Part shown: positions 27,792 to 55,941 of the stretch, piece by piece | Position numbering within the stretch: the first letter of the stretch is position 1 | Layout: every line of letters starts with the position of its first letter | From: Roseibium polysiphoniae | GTDB taxonomy: Bacteria > Pseudomonadota > Alphaproteobacteria > Rhizobiales > Stappiaceae | Reading direction: 5' to 3' | Assembly (NCBI RefSeq): GCF_014842925.1 | Contig: NZ_JACYXJ010000006.1 | Location: 186,001 to 250,000 of the forward strand | Length of the DNA: 64,000 nt | Position numbers and translations under genes: made by a program | The notes under the pieces: generated by a model | The model's input: the letters and a program-made list of their open reading frames with translations, nothing else | Told to the model about the DNA's origin: nothing | The model's database searches: none

Positions 27792-27807
27792 AATGACGCG
27801 GTAAGAA

Positions 27808-27856
27808 CGATCTCAAACGGCGGTCCATCGGGCCGCCGTTTTTGTTTGGGCAGGGG
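27808..27856 (+). terminator. Rho-independent terminator of ettA (direct repeat copy 1)
   Basis: AAACGGCGGTCC and GGGCCGCCGTTT form a 12-pair stem (one T-G pair) with an ATC loop, followed by TTGTTT. The 49-base segment including flanks recurs almost exactly at 30,171-30,218 with one substitution and one T missing. It closes the ettA transcript. Confidence 0.85.
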
Positions 27857-30152: not shown

Positions 30153-30170
30153 CATTTGCCTCGGCAACTG

Positions 30171-30218
30171 CGATTTCAAACGGCGGTCCATCGGGCCGCC
30201 GTTTTGTTTGGGCAGGGG
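30171..30218 (+). terminator. Rho-independent terminator (direct repeat copy 2)
   Basis: The same 12-pair stem, ATC loop and T-rich tail as at 27,808-27,856, followed by the same GTTTGGGCAGGGG. It closes the two-gene envelope module and forms a direct repeat with the ettA terminator, 2,363 bases apart. Confidence 0.85.
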
Positions 30219-30288
30219 GGCGGCCTTGTGGCCCTGGAAGGTTTTCCAATAGGTTGCCACCGAAGCACCCTTTCACCGGAGCAATCGA

Positions 30289-48388: not shown

Positions 48389-48516
48389 ATAATTTATCAT
48401 TATTTCTTCAGATGGCCTCATTTTGGAATATTTGACACAGCTCGCCCCATCTCGCTCTGCCCCTGACTGGCGCCGGGGCGCCGGCTCTACTATGTCTTGG
48501 TCAGAGGAGTTTCCCG

Positions 48517-49074
48517 ATGAACCGTATTGACGAAAGCCGCCCGTTCATTCCGCTCAACATTGCTGTTCTGACGGTGTCGGACACACGAACGCTGGAAGAA
48601 GACCGCTCCGGATCGACGCTCGCCGACCGCATCGAGAAGGCGGGACACAAATTGGCTGACCGGAAGATTGTGGCTGACGATGTTCCGGCGATACAGGCGG
48701 TCGTGCGGGGCTGGATCTCCGACAAGGGCGTCGATGTGGTGATTTCAACCGGCGGCACCGGCTTCACCGGACGCGATGTGACACCGGAGGCCGTCGAGCC
48801 ACTGTTCGAAAAGCGTATGGACGGATTTTCGGAAGTGTTTCACCGGATCTCCTACGACAAGATCGGCACCTCGACCATCCAGTCACGAGCGACCGGCGGC
48901 GTTGCGGGAGCCACCTATATCTTTGCCCTGCCCGGCTCTCCCGGCGCCTGCAAGGACGCCTGGGACGGGATCCTCAAGCTTCAGCTCGACTACCGCCACA
49001 TGCCCTGCAACTTCGTCGAGATCATGCCAAGGCTGGACGAACACCTGAAGCGCGGAAAACTGCAGGAGGCGTAG
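48517..49074 (+). CDS. moaB: Molybdenum cofactor biosynthesis protein B
   Basis: A 185-residue MoaB, related to MogA, that adenylylates molybdopterin. The GGTGFTGRDVTPEA loop, LTVSDTRTLEEDRSG and ALPGSPGACKDAWD are diagnostic. ATG 48517 has AGAGGAG 8 bases upstream. No other moa gene is adjacent. Confidence 0.95.
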   Translation: MNRIDESRPFIPLNIAVLTVSDTRTLEEDRSGSTLADRIEKAGHKLADRKIVADDVPAIQAVVRGWISDKGVDVVISTGGTGFTGRDVTPEAVEPLFEKRMDGFSEVFHRISYDKIGTSTIQSRATGGVAGATYIFALPGSPGACKDAWDGILKLQLDYRHMPCNFVEIMPRLDEHLKRGKLQEA

Positions 49075-49226
49075 AGGCGGGAGATTCAAAAAGACGCCAG
49101 TCCTTGCAGCCAGTTTGGCCTACCCGGAAGACCGATCAGGAACCTTGAGAGCCGCCAAACCACTGATTGTCGCAATTTCGGACTAGGCTCGCCCAAGCAT
49201 CATCCTGCCGATTGGAGAGACAGATC

Positions 49227-50438
49227 ATGAAACGCAAGACTGCCCTTTGGGTATCCGGTCTGATCGTCATCGCAGCTCTCTGTCTCACCTACTTGTTCAT
49301 GACCGGCGAGAATGGTCTCTCGAGACCATCTGCGCCAGAGCGCGCGCTCGACATAACACGCCTGTCTGATGAAAAAGCAGAAAGCCTGGGCTGGCATTCC
49401 GGTCGACTCGATGCCGCCTTGAGCCACGCCGCGACGCTTAGCACCGACAGCTTCATCATCGTTACAAACGATCAGGTGGTCGGCGCATTCGGCAATTTGG
49501 AAAAACCATACGCCACACACTCGATGCGCAAATCGTTCCTCAGCGCGCTCGTCGGCTTGCACCTCGGCTCAGGCCCGGGGCAGATCAACCTGGACGCCAC
49601 GCTGCAGGAACTGAATGTCAGCGACACTCCTGGGCCACTTTCAGCGAAGCAAAGACAAGCAACGGTTCTCAATCTGCTCAAGAGTGTGTCGGGCATCAAT
49701 CATCCGGCTGCGGCCTCGGGAGGGATACAAGCCGACATCGATAAAAGATTGGGCCACGGGGAAAACGAACCCGGCAGGATTTGGGCCTACAACAACTGGG
49801 ACTACAATGCTCTCACCACGATTTTCGAAGACCGCACAGGTCTTGGAATCGCGGAGGCATTTGACAAGGGCGTTGCTCGACCGACGGGCATGGAAGACTT
49901 CAGTGTTGATGCGGTGTCCCATATCCTTGATGCTGATTTATCGATGCATAAGGCTGCGGCGTTTCGCATGTCGGCCCGGGATCTGGTCAGGCTTGGCCAG
50001 CTTTACCTTCACAATGGTCGCGCGGACAATCAACAAGTTCTGCCTGAAAGCTGGATCGACCGCGCAGTTGAGGATTTCACCGAAACGGGGAACGACGGCC
50101 TGAGATGGGCGCATGGATATTTGTGGTGGATTCCCGGCCCTGAAACTGGCCTGCCAGAAGGATCTTTCTGGGCTTGGGGCCTTGGAAATCAAGCTCTCTT
50201 CGTCGTGCCCGAATGGGACACTGTCATCGTTCACCAGTCCGACACGACCGAGTTCTTAAAACGCTTCCTTCCGATGATCGAAGTGGACGGCATGGAAGGC
50301 GAGGCTGCGATTGAACAGCTCATGCTATCGTGCCTTGAGCGTGGCAACCGCGAGAGCGAGTATTGCGTCGAGCATCGCTTTACCACACGGCGCGAGTTCG
50401 ACGAGCTGATGGCGCTTATTGCCAGGGCAAGAATTTAG
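49227..50438 (+). CDS. Serine hydrolase of the beta-lactamase/CubicO family
   Basis: A 403-residue protein with an N-terminal hydrophobic segment (about 6-25, signal or anchor). The S-x-x-K nucleophile motif is HSMRKS (about residue 100) and the Y-x-N motif is in AYNNWDYN; the third motif region (HG-YLWWIPG, then WGLGNQ) is present. Such proteins are penicillin-binding-protein-like peptidases or esterases, and no true beta-lactamase resistance role is implied. ATG 49227 has GGAGAG upstream. The VOC gene begins 16 bases after its stop. Confidence 0.83.
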   Translation: MKRKTALWVSGLIVIAALCLTYLFMTGENGLSRPSAPERALDITRLSDEKAESLGWHSGRLDAALSHAATLSTDSFIIVTNDQVVGAFGNLEKPYATHSMRKSFLSALVGLHLGSGPGQINLDATLQELNVSDTPGPLSAKQRQATVLNLLKSVSGINHPAAASGGIQADIDKRLGHGENEPGRIWAYNNWDYNALTTIFEDRTGLGIAEAFDKGVARPTGMEDFSVDAVSHILDADLSMHKAAAFRMSARDLVRLGQLYLHNGRADNQQVLPESWIDRAVEDFTETGNDGLRWAHGYLWWIPGPETGLPEGSFWAWGLGNQALFVVPEWDTVIVHQSDTTEFLKRFLPMIEVDGMEGEAAIEQLMLSCLERGNRESEYCVEHRFTTRREFDELMALIARARI

Positions 50439-50454
50439 CGAAGGAAAACGCAGC

Positions 50455-50871
50455 ATGATTGCCTACGTCACGGTCGGCGTTGATGACATCATTGGTGCCA
50501 AACGGTTCTATTGTGCGTTCCTGCCAGCTCTAGGTTACGAGCTGGAAGAAGGGCCCGAGGGCCTGAGCTTCGCGCTGCCCGTGCCATCAGGCCAGGCTCC
50601 TTTGCTGCCGGAGTTCTATGTAAAACCAACCTTCGATGGCCGTCCTGCATCCGCTGGAAACGGCACAATGGTCGCCTTTGAGGCTCGCAGCCAAAGCCAG
50701 GTTCGAGACCTTCACGCCGCCGCACTTGCTGCCGGCGGCTTTGACGAAGGGCAGCCGGGTTTTCGTGATGCGTATGGTCCGCGTTTTTACGTTGGCTACC
50801 TGCGTGACCCTCAACGGAACAAGATCGCATTGTTTTCCAGCAACCCAAATGAACCCGGACGCGACGACTAA
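50455..50871 (+). CDS. VOC (glyoxalase/bleomycin resistance) family protein
   Basis: A 138-residue protein from ATG 50455. Two beta-alpha-beta-beta-beta halves are visible: AYVTVGVDDIIGAKRFYCAF at the start and GFRDAYGPRFYVGYLRDPQRNKIAL at the end, a pattern of metal-binding VOC proteins. The ligand is unknown. It probably forms an operon with the serine hydrolase. Confidence 0.85.
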   Translation: MIAYVTVGVDDIIGAKRFYCAFLPALGYELEEGPEGLSFALPVPSGQAPLLPEFYVKPTFDGRPASAGNGTMVAFEARSQSQVRDLHAAALAAGGFDEGQPGFRDAYGPRFYVGYLRDPQRNKIALFSSNPNEPGRDD

Positions 50872-50893
50872 GGCGACTTTGATGCGCGAGCTC

Positions 50894-51123
50894 GCGCTCA
50901 CACCCTAATCCTTCCTGCGTCCCTCCCTCAGCACGATGAAGATTCCGCTGGCGATGATGATGGCGGCGCCGAGGTAAGTGGCGAGATCTGGAATTTCGCG
51001 CCAGAACAGCCAGCCGAGAAGGGTCGCCCAGATGAGCGCGCTGTAATCGAGGGGCGCCAGCACGGTCGCAGGCGCAAGGCGAAAGGCCTGGGTCATGAGG
51101 GTGATGCCTATCGTGCCGAAGAA
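50894..51123 (+). repeat. 230-bp direct repeat, copy 1 (EamA gene 3' end)
   Basis: Matches 53,267-53,496 over 230 bases with 5 substitutions (97.8% identity) and no gap. It begins 11 bases outside the stop codon and ends inside the EamA coding frame. Together the copies flank the permease-LysR cassette, 2,373 bases apart. Confidence 0.92.
50905..51123 (-). pseudogene. Truncated 3' fragment of an EamA/DMT transporter gene
   Basis: The fragment encodes the last two to three membrane segments of the 53,278-54,162 transporter (FFGTIGITLMTQAF to LREGRRK), differing in the last residue (Asp instead of Gly). The upstream part of the gene is absent; the open frame continues into unrelated sequence (51,124-51,162). 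It is a duplication scar, not a working gene. Confidence 0.88.
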
Positions 51124-51213
51124 ATCGTTGGTCTTCTGCAATTTGAACGGAAGTAAGTTCAACAGGTGTAGCCGACTTCGCCCGATGTTTGGGTTAGGAA
51201 ATACCCGGTCAAC

Positions 51214-52266
51214 CTAGACAGCCCACTCGAACACATACCCTGCAGCAAGTGAGCCGAGAACGGCCAGGCAAAGGTATAATAGAAAAGGTTTCAGTTTTAG
51301 GACCGGGGCAATGGCCATAGCCCCCCAGATACTGACAACTCCGCCTGAGATCAAAAAAGCCATGGCCGCGCCTTGGGACATGCCATTGTCGATCAGACCA
51401 CGCGCCAGCGGCAGCGCCGCGTAACCGTCAATGTAGGCCGGAGCGCCAACAAACACGGCCGCGGGTATGGCCCACCATTGCCCCTCCCCGACATATGCCG
51501 CTAACGATCCGGGCGCTAATGCGGCATTGAGCACATACTCCGCGGCGAAGGCTGGCGTTAGGCAGATCAGGATCAGACGTGCCGTGACCCACAACTGCTG
51601 AATAAACGATTTTCGCCGCGCACTGGTCCGCCAAACCCAGGGATCAAACACCTGGGCTCGAGTACATTGCGTGGTGCTCAGCTGCTTGGTTAAACCGCTG
51701 TCCCGAAGCGCGTGAAGGGCCCACGGTCTTTGCGCGAACAAGGCAGTGATCAGACCACCGAACACACCCAAGCCGAAAGCTGCCACCGTTTTCCCGACCG
51801 CAAAGCTCAGGCCAAGCGTGGCCGCCGTCGTTGCCAGCATTGCCGGATCCGTGATCGGTGAGGACAGCCAAAATGCCATGATAGGTGCCAGCGGCACCCC
51901 CGCCGCCAAAAGCCCGGCCATCAATGGCAAAACGGTTACGCCACAAACAGGTGTTATCGCCCCGATCAGAGAGGCCACAAACACGGTGCGTAACGTCCGT
52001 CCCTCAAAAGCCCCTGCGATGTGGCTGTCGGCACCGCTCGCAATGATCCACGCGGCAAGAATGATGCCCGGGACGACGATAGGTGCGACGGCAACCAAGC
52101 CCCAAAATACGAAGAGTGTTGTACGTTCAATATGGTCGGGCCAAACCAGACTGACTCCAACCATCAGAGCAAGACAAGCAGCCCACAGTGCATGTTTCTT
52201 GCCTGCGCTTTTCTTGCCCATTCCCTTCCGGCTTGCTTCATGGCGAGCAACGGTTTGACTGGTCAT
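51214..52266 (-). CDS. Predicted permease (PF03773/DUF318, YraQ/ArsP-like)
   Basis: A 350-residue permease with about eight to ten membrane segments arranged as two related halves. GAITPVCGVTVLPLM and LSSPITDPAM in the first half, and VGAPAYIDGYAALPL with AAMAFLISGG in the second, are the two-fold signature. Members export arsenic compounds, thiols or unknown solutes; the substrate is not readable. ATG 52266 has AAGGAGA upstream. It diverges from the LysR gene, which probably controls it. Both genes lie inside the direct-repeat cassette. Confidence 0.85.
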   Translation of the reverse strand: MTSQTVARHEASRKGMGKKSAGKKHALWAACLALMVGVSLVWPDHIERTTLFVFWGLVAVAPIVVPGIILAAWIIASGADSHIAGAFEGRTLRTVFVASLIGAITPVCGVTVLPLMAGLLAAGVPLAPIMAFWLSSPITDPAMLATTAATLGLSFAVGKTVAAFGLGVFGGLITALFAQRPWALHALRDSGLTKQLSTTQCTRAQVFDPWVWRTSARRKSFIQQLWVTARLILICLTPAFAAEYVLNAALAPGSLAAYVGEGQWWAIPAAVFVGAPAYIDGYAALPLARGLIDNGMSQGAAMAFLISGGVVSIWGAMAIAPVLKLKPFLLYLCLAVLGSLAAGYVFEWAV

Positions 52267-52321
52267 TGGCGTCTCCTTCAGCTTGAAAGCTACCGCCAGA
52301 TCTCCCATACATAAAATAAAT

Positions 52322-52331
52322 AATTCGAATT
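52322..52331. promoter_or_regulatory. Palindrome in the permease-LysR divergent region
   Basis: AATTCGAATT is a perfect 10-bp palindrome 20 bases before the LysR start in the 84-base divergent region. LysR-type regulators usually bind near such sites (T-N11-A dyads) between divergent genes, so this is the best operator candidate. Confidence 0.42.
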
Positions 52332-52350
52332 TCAGCTATTGGAAAATTAA

Positions 52351-53208
52351 ATGGATACTCTGGATAGTGATCTCCTTCGCACCTTTGTCGCGGTCACCCA
52401 AGCAGGAAGCATTTCAGATGGAGCTGCTCGGATTCGCCGATCACAATCGGCCACCAGCCTTCAGATCAAACGCCTCGAAGCGATACTCGGGAAACCCGTT
52501 TTTGACCGGCATGGGCGCGGCGTCGTTCTCAGTGAGACCGGTCGACGCCTGTTACCGATCGCCCAGGAGGTAACCGACCGCCTGGACGCAGCACTGCGCG
52601 ACATCGCCAGAGAGTGCGTGACGGGCAAATTACGGGTCGGCATTCCTGATGACCATGGAAGGGCGAAACTTGCACAGATCATCGCAACCTTCAGCCGCCA
52701 ACACCCTCAGGTCGAACTTGATGTGAGCTGCGCGCTCAGCGCGGTTTTCCCGAACGCTCTTCAAAAGGGCGCACTGGACCTTGCTATCTATGAGGTCAAT
52801 CTACCGGCCGCCAACGAGGAAGTTCTGTTCGAAGACCCGACGTGTTGGGCGGCCTCAAAGAATTCAGCTTTCACGACATGTGAAATCCTCCCCGTGGCCC
52901 TGTTTGATCAAGCCTGCTGGTGGCGGAATGCAGCCATCAGTTCGCTTGAAGAGCGCGGAAAACCCTATCGCATCGTCTATACCAGTCAGAGCGTATCCGG
53001 CGTTGTTGCCGCGGTAGATGCTGGAATTGCCGTCGGGCTCCTGGGGCGATCTTCACTCCATTCGGGCCTTTCAATTGAAAGCGAAAGACTGGGGCTTCAG
53101 ACCTCTCCGACATCCAAACTGGTCATGGCCGCGAGCGGCTTGCCAGAAGATCGTCCTTTGGCGGCGATGAAGTCGGCGATCCGGGCCGCCTTTCAAACTG
53201 TCACCTAA
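52351..53208 (+). CDS. LysR family transcriptional regulator
   Basis: A 285-residue LysR-type regulator. The N-terminal winged helix (about 1-60; LLRTFVAVTQAGSISDGAARI, SQSATSLQIKRLE) is standard, followed by the ligand-binding domain (about 90-280). It is transcribed divergently from the permease gene and presumably regulates it and itself. Codon use is somewhat less GC-rich than the surrounding housekeeping genes, fitting a cassette of other origin. Confidence 0.92.
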   Translation: MDTLDSDLLRTFVAVTQAGSISDGAARIRRSQSATSLQIKRLEAILGKPVFDRHGRGVVLSETGRRLLPIAQEVTDRLDAALRDIARECVTGKLRVGIPDDHGRAKLAQIIATFSRQHPQVELDVSCALSAVFPNALQKGALDLAIYEVNLPAANEEVLFEDPTCWAASKNSAFTTCEILPVALFDQACWWRNAAISSLEERGKPYRIVYTSQSVSGVVAAVDAGIAVGLLGRSSLHSGLSIESERLGLQTSPTSKLVMAASGLPEDRPLAAMKSAIRAAFQTVT

Positions 53209-53266
53209 AAAGCCGTCTGTCGGGAAAACCTTAGCCGGATGCCAGCAAACGGCAGAAAGTCAGATA

Positions 53267-53496
53267 GCGCTCACACCCTACCCCTTCCTGCGTCCCTCCC
53301 TCAGCACGATAAAGATACCGCTGGCGATGATGATGGCGGCGCCGAGGTAAGTGGCGAGATCTGGAATTTCGCGCCAGAACAGCCAGCCGAGAAGGGTCGC
53401 CCAGATGAGCGCGCTGTAATCGAGGGGCGCCAGCACGGTCGCAGGCGCAAGGCGAAAGGCCTGGGTCATGAGCGTGATGCCTATCGTGCCGAAGAA
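53267..53496 (+). repeat. 230-bp direct repeat, copy 2 (within the intact EamA gene)
   Basis: Copy of 50,894-51,123. This copy includes the true 3' end of the intact transporter gene plus 11 bases beyond its stop. Confidence 0.92.
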
Positions 53497-54162
53497 GGCG
53501 ATGGCGACGAAGAGCCAAAGATGTCGAGGCTCAAGATCGACCCAGAAGAAGGGGCAGACCAGAGCGCTGAGCAGCGCGCCCGCGCCGACGAGATAAAGCA
53601 TCAATGTCCAGACGCTCTCGCGTGGATCAACCCAGCGCGCACCGATCATCAGCACCGCATAAAGAACCGCGGTCGCGAGCGGCAGGAGCAGTGCCGGCTG
53701 GAAGCTGCCGCCGCCAGGCCGGACAACGATCAGGACACCCAAGAAACCAACCAGAACGGCACTCCAGCGCCGCCAGCCGACGGTTTCGCGCAGGAGAAAG
53801 GCCGACAGGGCCGTGATGAACAGCGGAGCTGCGAAGACCAGCGCCGTCGCCTCAGCCAGATCGAGAAGCGTGACGCTGGTGAAGAAAAGCGTTGCCGCAG
53901 CCATCCACAAAAGGCCGCGCGCCATATGGGCGCCGAGACTATAGGTCCTCAAAGCGCCCGCTCCGCCCAGGAAGTAGGCTATCAGCGCGGCAAACGGCAG
54001 CGCGATGATGTTGCGCATGAAGAGGATTTGCACGGGCGGATAGGTCTCACCGAGGGTCCTGGCGAGCGCATCATTGACGCAGAGACACGCGACGCCGACG
54101 CACATCATGATGATGCCGGTGGTTGTGCGGGTGGCTGGCACTGCTGCTGCGGCCGTGGTCAT
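53278..54162 (-). CDS. EamA/DMT family transporter
   Basis: A 294-residue drug/metabolite transporter with ten membrane segments in two EamA repeats (RNIIALPFAALIAYF region and LAPATVLAPLDYSALIWATLLG region). Substrate unknown; RhaT/YdcZ-like carriers export amino acids or metabolites. The 3' 230 bases are duplicated 2.4 kb away, on the far side of a permease-LysR cassette. Confidence 0.87.
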   Translation of the reverse strand: MTTAAAAVPATRTTTGIIMMCVGVACLCVNDALARTLGETYPPVQILFMRNIIALPFAALIAYFLGGAGALRTYSLGAHMARGLLWMAAATLFFTSVTLLDLAEATALVFAAPLFITALSAFLLRETVGWRRWSAVLVGFLGVLIVVRPGGGSFQPALLLPLATAVLYAVLMIGARWVDPRESVWTLMLYLVGAGALLSALVCPFFWVDLEPRHLWLFVAIAFFGTIGITLMTQAFRLAPATVLAPLDYSALIWATLLGWLFWREIPDLATYLGAAIIIASGIFIVLREGRRKG

Positions 54163-54361
54163 GGTTTCTCCTCACCTTGCCAACGCTGTGTCAGAGCGTT
54201 GCAGCTTAAAGCTTAGTCATGCCCTGCAATGCACCACAAGCCGACTTACATCCCGAATAGTTCCCTCCCCTGGCGCTCCGCCTCTATTCGTGGTCATTTT
54301 GCTGAAACATCGCGTAGATAGGTCACGGGCTTTATGTGACGCGCTTTCAGTCGGACGGTCC

Positions 54362-55117
54362 ATGCCAGTCTATGATGCCTATGTAATCTGCACCTCTCCG
54401 CGCAGCGGCAGCACACTCTTGTGCAAGCTGCTGTCGGCCACCGGCGTCGCCGGCCGGCCGGGGTCCCATTTTCACGAACCCTCGCTTGACGCCTGGCTTG
54501 ACTATTACGGTCTTGAGAGTGGGCCTTGTGAAATGGAGAACCTCAAAGCGGTGTTTGACGCGGCGCGCGCGAAAGGCAGGGGCGGAACAGACGTCTTCGG
54601 CCTGAGACTGCAGCGACACAGTTTCGATTTCTTTCAGCAAGAGCTGGCCCTCCTCCATCCTGAAGCGCAGAGCGATCGTGGGCGCATGGAGGCGGCCTTC
54701 GGACGGGTGCTCTTTGTCCATCTGACACGGGCCGACAAGCTTGAGCAGGCGATTTCCTTTGTGAAGGCACAGCAGACCGGCCTTTGGCACAAGGCGCCGG
54801 ATGGACGCGAGCTGGAGCGCCTCAGCGCCCCACGCGAGCCGGTCTACGACGGGCCGGCAATCAAGGCGGAGCACGACCGTTATGAGGCTTTCGACCGAGA
54901 CTGGATCGAGTGGTTCGCCGCTCAGGGCGTCGACCCGCTCACCATCACCTATGACACGCTGTCAGAAGACCCACTGCGTGTTCTTGCGGAAGTCCTGACA
55001 AAGTTGGGGCTTGATGGTGATCTTGCGAAAGATGTCGAACTGCCCGTCGCCAAGCTTGCCGATGAGACCAACCGGGACTGGGCAGAGCACTTCCGTCAGG
55101 AATACGCAACCGGTTGA
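54362..55117 (+). CDS. Stf0-type sulfotransferase
   Basis: A 251-residue sulfotransferase of the Stf0 (LPS/trehalose sulfotransferase) family. The 5'-phosphosulfate loop TSPRSGSTLLCKLL is at residues 11-24, followed by GRPGSHFHEP; FVHLTRADKLEQAISF is the second PAPS-binding region. Likely transfers sulfate to an outer-surface carbohydrate. The frame extends to 54,074, but ATG 54362 gives the family start. It converges on the glycosyltransferase gene (6-base gap). Confidence 0.87.
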   Translation: MPVYDAYVICTSPRSGSTLLCKLLSATGVAGRPGSHFHEPSLDAWLDYYGLESGPCEMENLKAVFDAARAKGRGGTDVFGLRLQRHSFDFFQQELALLHPEAQSDRGRMEAAFGRVLFVHLTRADKLEQAISFVKAQQTGLWHKAPDGRELERLSAPREPVYDGPAIKAEHDRYEAFDRDWIEWFAAQGVDPLTITYDTLSEDPLRVLAEVLTKLGLDGDLAKDVELPVAKLADETNRDWAEHFRQEYATG

Positions 55118-55123
55118 AGTGCC

Positions 55124-55828
55124 TCAGCCGTGAAGCTTGAGCAGTGCCTTGGGCGGCAGGCGAAGGGTGTTGACACAGAAGCGGGCGACCGACTTCCGAA
55201 AACCTGAAATCAGGCTGTCAGACTGGCCCGGCTCGGACCCACGGCCAGAACAAACGGCACCGGAGCGCAGGAACACGAGACGCCGGCCGCCAATGCGTTT
55301 AACCAAGTCCAGATCTTCCATCTCCCGAAGGGGCCGATAACCGCCAAGGCTCTGGTAAAAGCGTCTGGAGATCAGCAGGCCCTGGCTGCCGTCCGGCATG
55401 CCCAAGAACCTTGAGCGGACAACGGCCATGAATTCAGACACGCGCGCGCCCATGCCGAAGGCCTCGAACCGCAGCTTGAAGGCAGCAGCTGTCTTGTCAG
55501 CGCTGCCAGCCCGTTCAGCACGCTCAATGAAGTTCTGCACTTCGTGATGCCAGCTGGCTTCAAGAACCGTGTCGGCGGGTAGAAACAGCAGCCATTCGCC
55601 GCGCCGTGAGGCCTGGGCCCCGGCCGCCAATCGCTCGCTGCGTGGTCCCTTGACCTCGCGCCAATCGCAGCCCGCAGCGTCTGCGACGCGTTCGGTGTTG
55701 TCCGAGGATCCGCCGTCAACGACGATCACTTCTCGCACGACGCCCTCGGCGGCCGCTGGAACGAGTGCGGCAAGGCAATGAGCCAGGTCCGCTTCGGAAT
55801 TCAAGGTCGGTACAATCACACTGATCAT
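55124..55828 (-). CDS. Family 2 glycosyltransferase (TIGR04283-like)
   Basis: A 234-residue GT-A glycosyltransferase. MISVIVPTLNSEADL, VIVVDGGSSDNT, LLFLPADT (variant DxD) and GSQGLLISRRFY are typical of the TIGR04283 group, which includes arsenosugar-type enzymes. ATG 55828 is chosen; an upstream ATG at 55858 is also open. The acceptor is unknown. It diverges from the radical SAM gene. Confidence 0.83.
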   Translation of the reverse strand: MISVIVPTLNSEADLAHCLAALVPAAAEGVVREVIVVDGGSSDNTERVADAAGCDWREVKGPRSERLAAGAQASRRGEWLLFLPADTVLEASWHHEVQNFIERAERAGSADKTAAAFKLRFEAFGMGARVSEFMAVVRSRFLGMPDGSQGLLISRRFYQSLGGYRPLREMEDLDLVKRIGGRRLVFLRSGAVCSGRGSEPGQSDSLISGFRKSVARFCVNTLRLPPKALLKLHG

Positions 55829-55941
55829 GACCTTCCTTGTACCGCCTTTTTTTTGCAATGGCGAGGCAAACGCCTTGTTTCACCTCTTGTTTCGATTAAT
55901 GTTCCTATTATGTTCTTATTTCTCGTGATCGGATTCGCACG

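Follow-up and report, generated by a model that had tools for sequence, protein, structure and literature searches.

A permease-LysR gene pair inserted between host-derived direct repeats of an EamA gene end in Roseibium polysiphoniae

The locus was studied in a stretch of 64,000 bases (the window) from contig C9 (546,913 bases) of the Roseibium polysiphoniae genome (G000; 4.58 Mb in 12 contigs). A divergent pair of genes for a permease and a LysR-family regulator lies there between two long direct repeats, next to an EamA-family transporter gene. The features, in window coordinates, are as follows.

50455-50871, forward strand: gene to the left of the insert, named VOC in the first-pass annotation; adjoins EamA in the closest relative, G028
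50894-51123, reverse strand: left repeat (copy A), a severed EamA 3' end plus 11 bases past the stop; 225 of 230 bases shared with copy B; to the left, sequence continuous with G028
51124-53266, no strand: insert of 2,143 bases, absent at the G028 locus, where the flanks join at a single repeat copy
51124-51213, no strand: spacer of 90 bases from copy A to the permease stop codon, without convincing match among the loci compared (best E 0.24)
51214-52308, reverse strand: predicted permease of the ArsP_1 family, 364 aa (PF03773, E 6.5e-34)
52351-53208, forward strand: LysR-family regulator, 285 aa, divergent from the permease (PF00126, PF03466)
53209-53266, no strand: spacer of 58 bases from the LysR stop to copy B, without convincing match among the loci compared (best E 0.94)
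53267-53496, reverse strand: right repeat (copy B), 3' terminus of the intact EamA gene with 11 further bases, from alignment to copy A and G028
53278-54162, reverse strand: intact EamA-family transporter, 294 aa (PF00892, E 3e-25), 99% identical to the G028 protein

Alignment of the two repeats gave five mismatches in 230 positions (97.8% identity), at the positions and with the number of substitutions that the first-pass annotation had given. The 2,373 bases by which it set the copies apart is correct as a start-to-start distance and not as a gap, which measures 2,143 bases. The duplicated segment comprises the last 219 bases of EamA, stop codon included, and 11 more. The EamA reading frame and the PF00892 matches bear out that copy B is the end of an intact gene and copy A a severed fragment, the latter matching this family at E 1.1e-8 on an 85-aa frame. 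The divergent permease and LysR genes between the repeats were equally recognised by their Pfam families. Against the NCBIfam Cu/Zn efflux model SO_0444 the permease scored 74.7 bits, far under the cut-off of 300. The name VOC could not be confirmed for the gene at 50455-50871, which had no match at E 0.001 in Pfam or at E 0.01 in NCBIfam; we take it to be VOC-like in appearance.

A chance origin of the 230-base pair is excluded. Direct repeats of at least 60 bases and at least 88% identity, spaced 600-30,000 bases apart, were sought in the whole of C9 and in C4 1-760000, C6 1-700000 and C5 1-420000, together 2,426,913 bases (2.43 of 4.58 Mb); at this threshold, older cases below 88% would escape. 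Besides the pair in the window, only three pairs reached 95% over at least 100 bases, and all three belong to the gcvPB and icd cases described below. The three remaining direct-repeat families of at least 60 bases in the window are 73-79% identical. A 63-base direct repeat at 27794-27856 and 30157-30219 (79%) has a common hairpin followed by a T run and looks terminator-like by eye.

Among the 45 genus genomes searched (that of R. polysiphoniae included), G028 was the closest relative. It matches window positions 48400-51131 and 53267-55900 at 95%, and the two matches overlap by 238 bases, which correspond to one repeat copy and a few chance matches. In the detailed alignment, 4,131 bases at 95.2% and 4,210 bases at 95.1% share a single 230-base copy. 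Host sequence at the joint is complete relative to G028, both sides being kept up to and including the repeat. An empty locus with the presumed VOC gene next to EamA, proposed beforehand as a check on insertion, was thus found in G028 with one copy of the repeat, and insertion after the split from this relative, the closest one compared, is supported. The opposite outcome, in which all close relatives have the same repeat-cassette arrangement and repeats diverged to an equal degree, does not hold because G028 lacks the arrangement.

The age of the duplication was read from the 230 repeat positions. Copies A and B differ at five, A and G028 at 19, and B and G028 at 16, and at 14 positions A and B agree against G028; A thus shares 14 of the 16 bases by which B departs from G028. 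These 14 common sites place the duplication after the G028 split and derive it from the lineage's own EamA. Barring later gene conversion, A and B are sisters made after that split, and both copies are host lineage sequence, not a foreign EamA end. Three of the five A/B differences could be polarised, all as changes in the severed copy A, and two are three-state; none of the five reveals a crossover point.

The same counts bear on two other readings. Had the arrangement been ancestral and recombination between the two repeats removed the pair from G028, one clean copy would likewise be left; the five differences between A and B against 19 and 16 to G028, together with the 14 common changes, would then require later gene conversion, and this reading is very unlikely. 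That the structure is an assembly artefact is hardly credible, as the copies differ at five sites, C9 is 546,913 bases long and three loci with different repeats are involved.

The permease-LysR pair itself is widespread. The permease was matched at E 1e-60 or better in 29 of the 45 genus genomes (R. polysiphoniae again included). Of 84 loci inspected, a count in which three contigs appear twice, 83 showed the divergent arrangement; at the remaining one, L090, the permease matched only in part and LysR gave no hit. Homology of the insert to its relatives stops within about 30 bases of both stop codons in the best 25 of 122 alignments, and the few relatives that align past the LysR stop do so for up to about 27 bases. 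A quick permease tree of 109 rows, made with a simple model, contains 28 other rows from the genus, and 16 of these make up a single clade (support 100). The window permease falls outside this clade, within a group of 49 made up mostly of roseobacters, with six other same-genus rows; the groups enclosing it have SH-aLRT values of 82-88, none starred, and the tree does not fix its exact branching position. On this tree, the pair appears to belong with homologues from roseobacters and not in the main clade of its own genus. G028 has a pair of its own at C1:1930 kb (L037), with 70% DNA identity and no flanking repeat. Different copies at different places in the two species are as would be expected for a pair that moves between lineages. 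The G028 pair adjoins a gene resembling a GNAT acetyltransferase by eye; R. polysiphoniae has a copy of this gene, 88% identical, in an unrelated position (C6:371791-372321).

The G+C content of the insert (56.5%) is near that of the contig (58.0%), so composition does not mark the insert as foreign. A plasmid search with the permease returned six records, four of them from Phaeobacter, with 76% as the best match, and no donor for the pair was found among these records. IMG/VR gave no match to the sequence of the left joint.

Flanking repeats were sought at 82 loci (the window, the G028 pair and 80 named loci), of which 64 had more than 2 kb on both sides. Direct repeats of at least 50 bases and above 75% identity flanked the pair at three of the 82, namely in the window, at L061 (52 bases) and at L063 (582 bases, 87%), and the duplication is therefore not a property of the pair. 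At L063:6294-10319 (MAG Proteobacteria bin.20), a related permease-LysR pair and one more open reading frame lie between the 582-base repeats, each of which holds a whole 162-aa gene; this may be a comparable event in a different organism.

Two further repeat-insert-repeat cases were found in the scan, at the 3' ends of gcvPB and icd, and each of these sites is empty in G028. Their repeats are located as follows.

C9:266453-266611 and 267872-268030 (L169:16453-18030): gcvPB 3' end, 159 bases with four differences; gcvPB identified by an NCBIfam equivalog match
C6:512803-512940 and 516113-516252 (L246): icd 3' end and 62 bases past the stop, about 140 bases at 95.7%

The gcvPB case is located 16 kb past the window's right end. 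Its insert of 1,260 bases (G+C 46.5%) has one open reading frame of 268 aa, which matched no Pfam family; at E 1e-20, just one of the 45 genus genomes besides R. polysiphoniae has a homologue. The G028 matches overlap here by 158 bases, leaving one copy. Over the 159 positions the two copies agree against G028 at 18, A differs from G028 at 21 and B at 19; three of the four differences between the copies were polarised to the severed one. At the new joint the final glutamate codon is formed again and a stop follows directly; this restoration of the last amino acid and stop may be due to chance.

In the icd case a further 71-base piece of icd follows after a deletion, the whole structure spanning C6:512803-516591. 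The insert of about 3.1 kb holds two DUF4189/Sel1-type genes with a common block of 950 bases at 99%. The G028 matches overlap by 135 bases, again as one copy. In 133 gap-free columns the copies agree against G028 at seven, differ from each other at four and differ from G028 at nine (A) and ten (B). Two of the three polarised differences lie in the intact copy, so decay of the severed copy is not uniform.

The three inserts share only a 16-base match at chance level. Their cargoes are unrelated, as are the targets EamA, gcvPB and icd, and the duplication varies by site (230, 159 and about 140 bases, three different sequences). The recurrence of the pattern at three genes is a hint that this genome may gain genes repeatedly with no obvious mobile element involved. 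Other repeats met in the scan are of different kinds. A pair at C9:3825/4299 (122 bases, 100%) is spaced by only 474 bases inside a large open reading frame with internal repeats, and the pair C6:554973/557970 is also present in G028. At C6:363220-372553 and C9:486061-487639, repeats of about 65-190 bases (85-92%) resemble dispersed non-coding repeats; further repeats were seen at C6:527534 and C6:169938, and tandem arrays on C4 and C6.

Recombination enzymes were sought in the inserts and in the genome. The earlier statement that no integrase or transposase is visible holds for the two genes of the window insert in Pfam and NCBIfam. An insertion sequence or composite transposon was rejected, with no transposase match in these two genes and a duplication of 230 bases instead of a short one. 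Among the five main open reading frames of the three inserts, no recombinase family and no restriction-modification family was matched in Pfam or NCBIfam. No Ku homologue was found in the R. polysiphoniae genome by a search that was positive in one of 14 control genomes, Bacillus subtilis.

Integrase islands such as e14 in icd target gene 3' ends, leaving the severed original end on one side and the complete gene on the other, and the Roseibium inserts likewise lie between a severed 3' end and a complete gene. Such a site-specific island or satellite would bring a replacement 3' end, with its integrase lost or acting in trans. All three cases are at gene 3' ends with the gene left whole, the gcvPB joint forms the last glutamate codon and an immediate stop, and icd is a classical island target. 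Unlike in e14-type islands, no integrase was found among the main open reading frames of the inserts, the inserts have no common ends, and the restored copy carries the lineage's own alleles in place of a diverged foreign end. This origin is improbable and was rejected for the absence of an integrase among the insert's genes and of common insert ends.

The route we infer is a single-crossover integration of a small circle with a piece of host gene, which we consider the most likely. A linear fragment would be ligated into a short DNA circle that joins the foreign permease-LysR pair to a piece of the species' own EamA end. This circle would recombine with the chromosomal EamA by one homologous crossover (insertion-duplication), giving a whole EamA (copy B) and, across the insert from it, a severed end (copy A). 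At gcvPB and icd, at least two more events of this kind took place; their structure is observed directly and their route is proposed. Direct repeats of common homology at both ends and a joint without host loss, as in Campbell-type integration, are present. Single crossover of a circle with host homology accounts for these features, for main open reading frames free of recombinases and for three different targets. Homologous recombination was called the likely route in the first-pass annotation; it is a plausible one, with a precedent from experiment (PMC3240628). Three points count against the circle: neither a circle nor a donor nor a conspecific strain was seen in the data compared; the circle must already join the species' EamA end to the foreign pair, which needs an earlier joining event; and direct capture at a staggered or sister-chromatid break gives the same structure in one step. 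In our judgement it is an evenly balanced proposition that the foreign pair was inserted downstream of EamA, after the G028 split, through one homologous crossover of a circle bearing the EamA end.

In the direct-capture alternative, end joining would take up linear foreign DNA at a staggered break, or between two sister chromosomes with breaks at different positions, and the overlap would be copied into a long target duplication; the incoming DNA would need no homology. Such capture produces the observed repeat-insert-repeat structure in a single step, with host origin for both copies, and it agrees with the positions at which A and B concur against G028 (14/230, 18/159 and 7/133) and with three unrelated cargoes and targets. 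The failure to find Ku lowers the standing of end joining, and no clear microhomology was seen by eye at the two new joints, although alternative end joining need not leave much. Capture of this kind is possible but rather unlikely, and classical Ku end joining in particular is a candidate of lowered, not negligible, standing. An HK97-type capsid gene followed 4-5 kb on by a DUF2460 gene occurs twice (C4:212302-217247 and C5:65097-70823), and a particle like a gene transfer agent may therefore exist as a source of linear DNA; the two loci are a possible gene transfer agent or prophage.

The crossover of a circle, our first choice, can be set beside laboratory work. For E. coli, PCR of 60 Lac-minus clones yielded the duplication product in 56. 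Sequencing of 14 clones showed duplications of 109-950 bp, which the authors attributed to a single crossover of a circle, and the other four clones were attributed to homology-facilitated illegitimate recombination (PMC3240628). There too, upon integration of the recircularised plasmid, a partial duplication of the target gene (109-950 bp) flanks the insert, but the E. coli case used a laboratory plasmid with cloned homology (PMC3240628), whereas the Roseibium case is known without a donor molecule. Homology-facilitated illegitimate recombination, in which foreign DNA has one homologous end and is joined non-homologously at the other, bears a likeness to the Roseibium case; it generally leaves a host deletion, while the Roseibium joint shows no loss of host bases relative to G028 (PMC3240628, PMC5361080).

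The closest described pattern is 'insertion with long target duplication' (Nobusato et al., Gene 2000), known from Helicobacter pylori and frequently, not obligatorily, associated with restriction-modification genes according to later papers (PMC1643837, PMC3154945, PMC3031569, PMC4978471, PMC7494987). The Roseibium cases resemble it, as described in those papers, in an insert absent from a close relative, a long direct target duplication and detection by comparison of two genomes, and they appear to fit this already-known pattern. They differ in cargo, restriction-modification genes being frequent in H. pylori and the Roseibium cargoes being the permease-LysR pair, an orphan protein and DUF4189 genes, and in host, Roseibium being an alphaproteobacterium with all three cases at gene 3' ends. 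What is added to the known pattern is unrelated cargo and repeated use in one genome. Among the titles listed in the literature searches, none dealt with Roseibium, a weak negative. The recurrence at two other genes and the name in the literature lay beyond what the first-pass annotation could see.

All three cases keep the gene whole by duplicating its 3' end, and insertions at such ends survive because one complete gene remains. Selection alone could be the source of the bias, since a duplication within the gene body would disrupt the gene; three cases do not separate survival from targeting at 3' ends. A broader idea, that recurrent recombinase-free gene gain in this lineage puts small unrelated cargoes directly behind conserved genes, copying 140-230 or more bases of the 3' end in every instance and thereby keeping the gene whole, and that 3' ends are preferred and not merely survived, is doubtful.

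When DNA enters a chromosome with no integrase or transposon to carry it, a clean insertion leaves no scar, which makes the event hard to trace; long host-derived duplications are such a scar. With three cases in about half of one genome and a relative with all three sites empty, R. polysiphoniae and G028 form a tractable species pair. This pair is suited to testing single crossover of ligated DNA versus end capture, and to testing the generality of a pattern known from Helicobacter restriction-modification genes.
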